This document shows positions 28,171 through 29,518 of a DNA stretch of 64,000 nucleotides, piece by piece. Made by a program: the position numbers and the translations under genes. Below the pieces are notes generated by a model. That model was not told the DNA's origin. It searched no databases and saw nothing but the letters and a program-made list of their open reading frames with translations. Positions within the stretch are counted from its first letter, which is position 1. Each line of letters begins with the position of its first letter. Origin of the DNA: Herbinix sp. (GTDB lineage Bacteria; Bacillota; Clostridia; Lachnospirales; Lachnospiraceae); the NCBI GenBank assembly GCA_028691795.1, contig JAQUYQ010000002.1, positions 16,456-80,455 of the forward strand, in the 5' to 3' direction.

Positions 28171-28213
28171 AGTAACCGGCCGCGGGTTTACAACCTGTCG
28201 GCCGGATATTACT
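28171..28213 (+). promoter_or_regulatory. GC-rich hairpin in the intergenic leader
   Basis: AGTAACCGGCCG...CGGCCGGATATTACT. Confidence 0.6.
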
Positions 28214-28215
28214 AT

Positions 28216-28296
28216 AGGAGGAGAAATCCTCCGAAAACAGGGAGGTTAAATCCTCCTTACAAACCAAGGAGGAGAAATCCTCCAAAAACAGGAGGA
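28216..28296 (+). promoter_or_regulatory. tandem SD/anti-SD hairpin leader of the cohesin-like gene
   Basis: GGAGGAGAAATCCTCC, GGGAGGTTAAATCCTCC, GGAGGAGAAATCCTCC, then CAGGAGGATTGGAATATG. Confidence 0.65.
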
Positions 28297-28303
28297 TTGG
28301 AAT

Positions 28304-29518
28304 ATGATAAATAGAATAAAAAAATATCTGGGTGTATTCTTATTGCTGCTTATAGCTGGAAGCCTGATTACGGCAAAACCTTGTCTGGCAGCCAGTGCAA
28401 AAGTAGATTTAACCTCTGACAATACTGAAGTTACAGTGGGTGATACGATACATGCTTATATAAAAATTAATTCTGGGACTACGTTTGGAGCTTTTGAAGC
28501 AAACTTAACCTATGATGATAGTATTTTAGAATATGAAGGTGGAGCAGCAGTCATAACCGGAGGCAATGGGTTCCTAAAAATATCGGATATGGACATTGCT
28601 GAGGTCACCACTTCCAGAAAATATGCTTTAGAATTTAAGACACTTAAGGTGGGAGAATGTAAATTATCCTTCAGTGATCTCATGGTATATGACGAGTCAG
28701 GGAATGAAATGCCGGTTTCAAGCGATGAATTGGCAATAAAGGTGAATGCGAAAGAAACAGCTTCAGCTGATGCGAATTTAAAATCCTTAATCACGAGTCC
28801 TACAGATATTACACCAACATTTGACAAAAACATTCTGGAATATAGTGTAAATGTTGGTAATGAGACAGAAAAACTAATCATTACTGCAATACCGGAAGAT
28901 AATAAGGCGAATGTTTCAATTTTAGGTAATGATTTTCTGAAAGAAGGAGAAAATAAAATTATCATTACTGTATTAGCTGAATCAGGAGATGTCATAGAAT
29001 ATACTATAAATGTATTTCGTGAATATTCACCAGAGAATGTATCCGGTTCGGACAATGTCACAGTAACACCTGCAGCAGCTCAGGGTTCATTTGAAATAGT
29101 ACAGAGCAATGGTGTAAAATATGCCGTATTTAGTGGTAATTATAAATTAATCGAACCAGGCAATGAGGTTGTAATACCCGAGGGTTATAATAAAACCGTA
29201 GTAACGATAACCGGCATTTCCATAACAGCATTTGTTCCAAATAATGATACGGAAAGCGAATTTATTCTGATTTATGCTGCGAATTCCTCAGGAGAAGAAG
29301 GATTTTATCAATATGACCGAATTGAAAAAACCCTACAGCGTTATGTGGCTGGTTCCGGCAATTCAAATGTTAATAATCAATCAAATGATTATCGTTCAAA
29401 ACTCAATAAAGCAGCTGTTGTAATAGCAGCCTTAAGTGCGCTGAGTATATTATTGATTTCCATTGTAATTTGGATATTTATTAAATTAAAAGGGGATAAG
29501 AAGGATGATTTAGAATAA
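28304..29518 (+). CDS. secreted cohesin-like domain protein with cadherin-like domain and C-terminal TM anchor
   Basis: 'GDTIHAYIKINSGTTFGAFEANLTYDDSILEYEGG' cohesin-like; 'YSVNVGNETEKLIITA...YTINVFRE'; C-terminal TM. Confidence 0.75.
   Translation: MINRIKKYLGVFLLLLIAGSLITAKPCLAASAKVDLTSDNTEVTVGDTIHAYIKINSGTTFGAFEANLTYDDSILEYEGGAAVITGGNGFLKISDMDIAEVTTSRKYALEFKTLKVGECKLSFSDLMVYDESGNEMPVSSDELAIKVNAKETASADANLKSLITSPTDITPTFDKNILEYSVNVGNETEKLIITAIPEDNKANVSILGNDFLKEGENKIIITVLAESGDVIEYTINVFREYSPENVSGSDNVTVTPAAAQGSFEIVQSNGVKYAVFSGNYKLIEPGNEVVIPEGYNKTVVTITGISITAFVPNNDTESEFILIYAANSSGEEGFYQYDRIEKTLQRYVAGSGNSNVNNQSNDYRSKLNKAAVVIAALSALSILLISIVIWIFIKLKGDKKDDLE

Follow-up and report, generated by a model that had tools for sequence, protein, structure and literature searches.

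We consider it likely that the leader examined here, from a stretch of 64,000 nucleotides of Herbinix sp. DNA (the window), is one of a dispersed and expandable family of cis-acting arrays that switch translation and are specific to this lineage. To judge from its sequence, the array can probably cover or free the Shine-Dalgarno sequence (SD) of the gene behind it and would thereby set the amount of protein. The entire array, comprising three units, the true SD, and the spacer to the start codon, occupies positions 28217–28303 on the + strand, as defined by sequence, repeat finding, and folding. Three GGAGG/CCTCC hairpins at 28217–28283 share the layout GGAGG-NNNNNN-CCTCC (GGAGGAGAAATCCTCC at 28217–28232, GGAGGTTAAATCCTCC at 28241–28256, and GGAGGAGAAATCCTCC at 28268–28283) and lead to the true SD; 8 nt separate its GGAGG core (28291–28295) from the start codon ATG at 28304. 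The preliminary description of this leader as a stem, three hairpins, and a true SD before the ATG is exact in sequence. The upstream GGAGG of the first unit (28217–28221, +), a putative decoy SD or anti-anti-SD that would serve as the ON arm of the unit, recurs at 28241–28245 (+) and 28268–28272 (+), and the starts of successive GGAGG motifs are 24, 27, and 23 nt apart. Each unit carries the anti-SD AATCCTCC, located at 28225–28232, 28249–28256, and 28276–28283 (all +), the third being closest to the true SD. Its partner in the putative OFF helix is the true SD with the three following bases, GGAGGATT at 28291–28298 (+), which it complements over 8 nt; sequence and covariation across 143 gene families support the anti-SDs, and alignment further supports the partner. 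Between the third anti-SD and the true SD lies a 7-nt A-rich loop, AAAAACA, that is, a short spacer of type I (see below). The array was also detected independently by Tandem Repeats Finder. The pattern GGAGGN{3,9}CCTCC has three matches in the 64-kb window, all in this leader, compared with 0.06 expected from shuffles, and the predicted folding energy of the leader is -60.7 kcal/mol versus -33.2 kcal/mol in shuffles (z -7.3).

The gene behind the array (28304–29518, +; open reading frame and domain search) encodes a protein of 404 aa that has a hydrophobic segment at its N-terminus and a Cadherin-like beta-sandwich domain (PF12733). It had been called cohesin-like, but the Pfam Cohesin match is weak (22.5 bits, below the cut-off of 24.1), and the supported domain is the Cadherin-like one. 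The GC-rich CCGGCC...GGCCGG stem at 28171–28213 (+), which had been taken as a component of the array, lies outside it on comparison with relatives. The stem follows the upstream SH3/Cadherin-like gene and keeps this place in most relatives, including those without hairpins; in one of these (G016), the stem and its surroundings are nearly identical to those in the window, yet the leader runs directly into a plain SD. A U run follows the stem in some species and is absent in the window. Its position suggests that the stem is likely the 3'-end or terminator hairpin of the upstream gene. No terminator-like site was found on the + strand of the array, and an intrinsic terminator or transcription attenuator was rejected as its identity because a GC-rich hairpin with a U run is lacking on that strand.

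In the Herbinix/Mobilitalea group of Lachnospiraceae, 217 arrays of 1–6 units each were read in 143 gene families. A unit consists of an upstream GGAGG, 1–5 nt, an 8-nt anti-SD (NNNCCTCC), and a spacer. Spacer length between anti-SD and SD has a bimodal distribution, either 7–13 nt and A-rich (type I) or 31–34 nt with a mode of 32 (type II), with few lengths in between. The anti-SD is complementary to the SD of the gene that it precedes over 8 nt, namely GGAGG and the next three bases. Because the GGAGG and CCTCC cores served to find the arrays, the three extension pairs are the sole independent evidence for this fit, and they were analyzed in 143 gene families, each represented by a single array, with 10,000 shuffles of the SDs among families. 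Pairing past the GGAGG core extends over a mean of 2.66 bp, compared with 1.34 +/- 0.09 bp after shuffling (maximum 1.69 in 10,000). The paired fractions at +1, +2, and +3 are 0.92, 0.92, and 0.85 (shuffled, 0.57, 0.70, and 0.77), and the fraction at +4 is at the level of chance (0.21 versus 0.22). Since pairing is gone at the fourth base, the helix is 8 bp long with a sharp edge. Full complementarity from +1 to +3 is absent in 40 of 187 arrays. In families whose upstream arm and true SD differ at the sixth base, the anti-SD fits the true SD in 22 and the adjacent upstream arm in six.

The same helix emerges when 35 type II families are aligned without gaps: 98.2% of the cells pair and 12 double changes occur versus 2.2 in shuffled alignments (0/500); sliding the partner by one base abolishes the pairing. 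RNAalifold, with this alignment as its sole input, returned exactly the 8-bp helix between the anti-SD and the true SD. In seven gene families, the stems of orthologs differ and are nevertheless fully compensated. For example, the anti-SD and SD of pheS in three species are AATCCTCC/GGAGGATT, AAACCTCC/GGAGGTTT, and AAGCCTCC/GGAGGCTT, so that the first extension pair is T-A, A-T, and G-C, respectively. As the extension positions covary, favor the true SD over the upstream arm, and change together in orthologs, the OFF state corresponds to a conserved helix that would hide the SD, as in translational switches with exclusive SD and anti-SD helices. The preliminary description had proposed that a CCTCC could pair with the true SD or with an upstream GGAGG, which the covariation bears out; it had named repeats devoid of covariation or conservation in relatives as the outcome that would speak against a switch, and this outcome was not obtained. 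It missed that the anti-SD is fitted over 8 nt to the SD of its gene, and that such arrays are dispersed through the genus. The fit to the true SD also bears on a different reading, in which the array is a ribosome standby or decoy site, or a stabilizer of the mRNA 5' end, whose GGAGG motifs gather 30S subunits or block nucleases and whose anti-SD is incidental. The exact GGAGG core in every unit and the regular spacing would suit such a function. However, it needs no anti-SD, the first three bases of the anti-SD fit the true SD and not the decoy, and the internal GGAGG motifs are hidden within hairpins; we regard this reading as improbable.

The anti-SD also has a conserved competing partner. 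An upstream GGAGG is retained adjoining nearly every anti-SD, and the sixth pair of this ON arm covaries across the 143 families (0.80 versus 0.50), although the covariation of the ON helix is not significant in the type II alignment of 35 sequences alone. The predicted energies of the ON and OFF helices are -8.5 and -9.5 kcal/mol for type I and -7.8 and -9.1 kcal/mol for type II, and the two predicted stabilities are within 2 kcal/mol of each other in 73% of the arrays. In partition functions, P(ON) and P(OFF) were 0.37 and 0.63 for type I; the corresponding type II values were 0.62 and 0.36. When the upstream GGAGG was mutated in silico, the SD was predicted to be hidden (unpaired probability 0.00–0.02), and mutation of the anti-SD was predicted to expose it (0.51–0.55). 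For the true SD in the window, pairing is predicted with the third anti-SD at 0.61 and with the first at 0.26, with 0.10 remaining free. These folding and energy calculations are consistent with the multi-state leader that had been suggested from the sequence.

We propose that the array acts as a register switch. Pairing of the anti-SD with the upstream GGAGG would give the ON state, in which the true SD is free, and pairing with the true SD would give the OFF state, in which the 8-bp helix hides it. The two helices would be mutually exclusive and nearly isoenergetic. Because n anti-SDs face n+1 GGAGG motifs, one GGAGG is always left unpaired, and translation would occur only while this vacant GGAGG is the true SD. 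The ON hairpins would form earlier in transcription, and the OFF helix would be slightly more stable at equilibrium. The register may be shifted by 30S subunits, by transcription speed and co-transcriptional folding, by an upstream ribosome in operons, or by a protein. Each tandem duplication adds OFF configurations, so the number of units should tune the translation rate. In the window array, the predicted accessibility of the SD at 37 C is 0.93, 0.18, 0.14, and 0.10 for zero to three units. Idealized arrays did not give a clean fall of accessibility with unit number and showed an even/odd alternation; because of this alternation, the direction of the copy-number effect is still an inference.

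A short helix over an SD also raises the idea of an RNA thermometer, in which warming melts the OFF helix. Consistent with it are the 8-bp SD-hiding helices, the increase in predicted accessibility of a one-unit leader, which is 0.13 at 25 C and 0.39 at 60 C, and the fact that one genome with no arrays (G007) is that of H. luporum SD1D, which originates from a thermophilic biogas plant (PMC4956452). In a thermometer, however, the competing ON hairpin would be superfluous; the genes are not those of heat shock or virulence, and the predicted shift is modest and not steady for two or three units. We regard a thermometer as very improbable.

The number of units turns over rapidly. One unit is present in 117 arrays, two in 68, three in 22, four in eight, and five or six in two. 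The suggestion that the leader is an expandable tandem repeat has held up, as within the genus the ilvC leaders range from one to five units and those of gyrB from one to six. Spacer identity is 0.79 within an array and 0.52 between arrays, which indicates growth by local duplication. The upstream flank is duplicated in 22% of the single-unit type II arrays, compared with 1% between arrays, and the style of loop and spacer differs genome by genome. These features, together with counts that swing between close species (36 in G015 and 4 in G020), would also be expected of a neutral or selfish tandem repeat with little regulatory effect, whose units spread and multiply through slippage and through recombination at GGAGG; its arms could be kept matched by template switching, which is able to mend imperfect palindromes in the absence of selection. 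Three observations argue against such pure drift. Repair by template switching should copy longer tracts, whereas the matching ends sharply at +3. The type II spacer length stays fixed at 31–34 nt despite varying sequence. Finally, ilvC, gyrB, carB, pheS, ileS, and serC retain their arrays across species while the spacers diverge and the stems change jointly. A repeat of this kind is unlikely in our view, but it is the rival to be taken most seriously.

The possibility that a trans-acting factor sets the register was considered in relation to the spacers. In most genomes, the start of type II spacers reads GTTRTANGT, with up to 1.6 bits at the first positions in G045, G014, and others, and an RNA-binding protein or small RNA reading this motif or the hairpin could hold the leaders of a large regulon in the ON or the OFF state; the broad set of genes would fit a global regulator. 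In contrast, the motif is absent from type I spacers, and type II spacers in the genome of the window begin otherwise. There is no covarying helix inside the type II loop (the best three-pair stack has a z of 3.1, compared with a null 95% level of 4.75), and GTTRTANGT may stem from common descent. We find a platform for such a factor rather unlikely. A conserved aptamer or ligand pocket was likewise not found: the spacers hold no internal helix, the type I loop is 7–13 A-rich nucleotides, and no Rfam match was obtained. We tentatively entertain a ligand-free, genome-wide control of dozens to ~100 genes per genome, in which the vacant GGAGG would move along the array, copy number would serve as a rheostat open to evolution, and the input would come from 30S availability or from folding during transcription.

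Arrays are widespread in the genus. The number of places with anti-SD, SD, and ATG ranges from 0 in H. luporum to about 90 per genome. The genome of the window has 31 hairpin places in about 20 loci, nearly all preceding a gene, and these genes include minD, ilvC, ileS, tig, trxB, and gyrB (named from N-terminal sequence). Genome-wide counts, which are pattern searches, gave 0 (G007, G011, and G022) to 99 (G014) and 150 (G045) matches of GGAGG..CCTCC..GGAGG. The mirrored control matched three times each in G014 and G045, and it matched 0–3 times in the four species with counts of 83–150. The three species of the same genus with no arrays count against the switch reading. G014 groups with the genus of the window by taxonomy, and its public title (SHOH01, Anaerolineaceae bacterium MAG4) looks wrong. 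A scan of 392 genomes of the order gave nothing comparable outside the genus except in G148 and G333, which were rejected as high-GC noise: the mirrored control gave high counts in both as well, and the matches listed for G333 are mostly GC-rich and coding-like. When 85,000 named genomes were scanned, the matches were mostly from Herbinix, Mobilitalea, and Clostridiales/Lachnospiraceae. A virus-borne element was rejected, as 2.9 million viral contigs contained only three matches; the contigs in that collection that bear arrays (L296–L298) are possibly prophage or host flanks. The DUF2000 gene (PF09391) is the sole gene repeatedly seen to carry the array outside the genus, with one to three units in roughly a dozen further Lachnospiraceae, largely from the gut (loci L092:266-685, L101, L111, L118, L133, L135, L140, L142, L166, L176, L191, and L193).

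When loci were sampled without bias, by a pattern lacking any start codon (nine loci in G006, 11 in G004, and 12 in G013), an SD and a start codon stood at the end of the array, on one strand only, in 31 of the 32. This result led to the rejection of a REP/BIME-type repeat with no tie to start codon or strand. The array starts <=30 nt from the stop of a co-directional open reading frame in 42 of 204 cases; since many arrays lie inside apparent operons, they would act on translation and cannot be promoter elements. Array genes checked with curated models are pyrF, serC, araA, gcvH, pheS, purM, murD, guaA, lgt, murI, glgA, pflB, ispF, gpsA, fliE, aroQ, and a gene for a KH-domain RNA-binding protein. 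They have unrelated housekeeping and metabolic functions, and no common function or signal unites them, which speaks either for general translation control instead of one regulon or for a spread with no specific signal behind it. The link once drawn between the repeat and a surface protein or cohesin gene is not supported, as arrays occur genome-wide and mostly at housekeeping genes.

The array was compared with known systems. In riboswitches and translational-attenuation platforms, an anti-SD has two exclusive partners, one of which is the SD, and one state hides the SD. The array shares these two exclusive partners, but neither an aptamer nor a leader peptide is present, Rfam gave no match, its anti-anti-SD is a copy of GGAGG, and its units are repeated up to six times and dispersed over many unrelated genes. 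Like the fourU and ROSE thermometers, it has a short helix over the SD in the 5' leader; it differs from them in its dedicated competing hairpin and tandem copies, in the lack of heat-related genes, and in the lack of an Rfam match. REP/BIME, BOX, and RUP elements are likewise short dispersed palindromes with variable tandem number and lineage-specific style, whereas the array has a single orientation, ends at the SD of a gene, and has its palindrome tuned to that SD. Standby sites and upstream SD-like decoys also place additional SD-like sequences upstream of the real SD; in the array, each of these faces an anti-SD that matches the real SD over 8 nt. No match above threshold to the 4227 models of Rfam 15 was found in or around the leader (best, ~22 bits versus cut-offs of 46–60), and a search of mostly open-access journal literature, which covered arrays of SD and anti-SD, alternative hairpins and decoys as well as this genus, found no such array described. 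SD hiding and the anti-anti-SD are thus familiar from riboswitches, attenuators, and thermometers, and the tandem, dispersed, and gene-fitted form was not found in Rfam or this literature.

SD/anti-SD switches are known gene by gene. In this genus, a standard switch that can be repeated in tandem seems to have been spread across much of the genome, each gene having an anti-SD made to fit it. The arrays prompt one to ask by what route such an RNA element could arise and multiply when no transposase is evident, and their compact design is on offer for synthetic biology. Orthologous genes with one to six units form a natural series for relating SD accessibility to expression, and Mobilitalea sibirica DSM 26468 (G013) is a cultured carrier in which the array is testable now.

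Two other leaders came up in the searches. Matches in G277 and G332 (f17) were rejected as members of the array family because they belong to a different dispersed GGAGG/CCTCC double-hairpin repeat with no tuning to the SD; this repeat (L299–L308), a G/C-rich hairpin with GGAGGTTTGGAGGCAGAGCCTCCAAGGT, lies just upstream of SDs in another family of the order. A near-identical GGAGGTCAAGRCCTCC leader, perhaps on a mobile element, occurs in three genomes of two families (L279, L309, and L310), where it precedes a gene whose product begins with MELQ(I/V)Y(K/R)N(A/V)EFGSVR.
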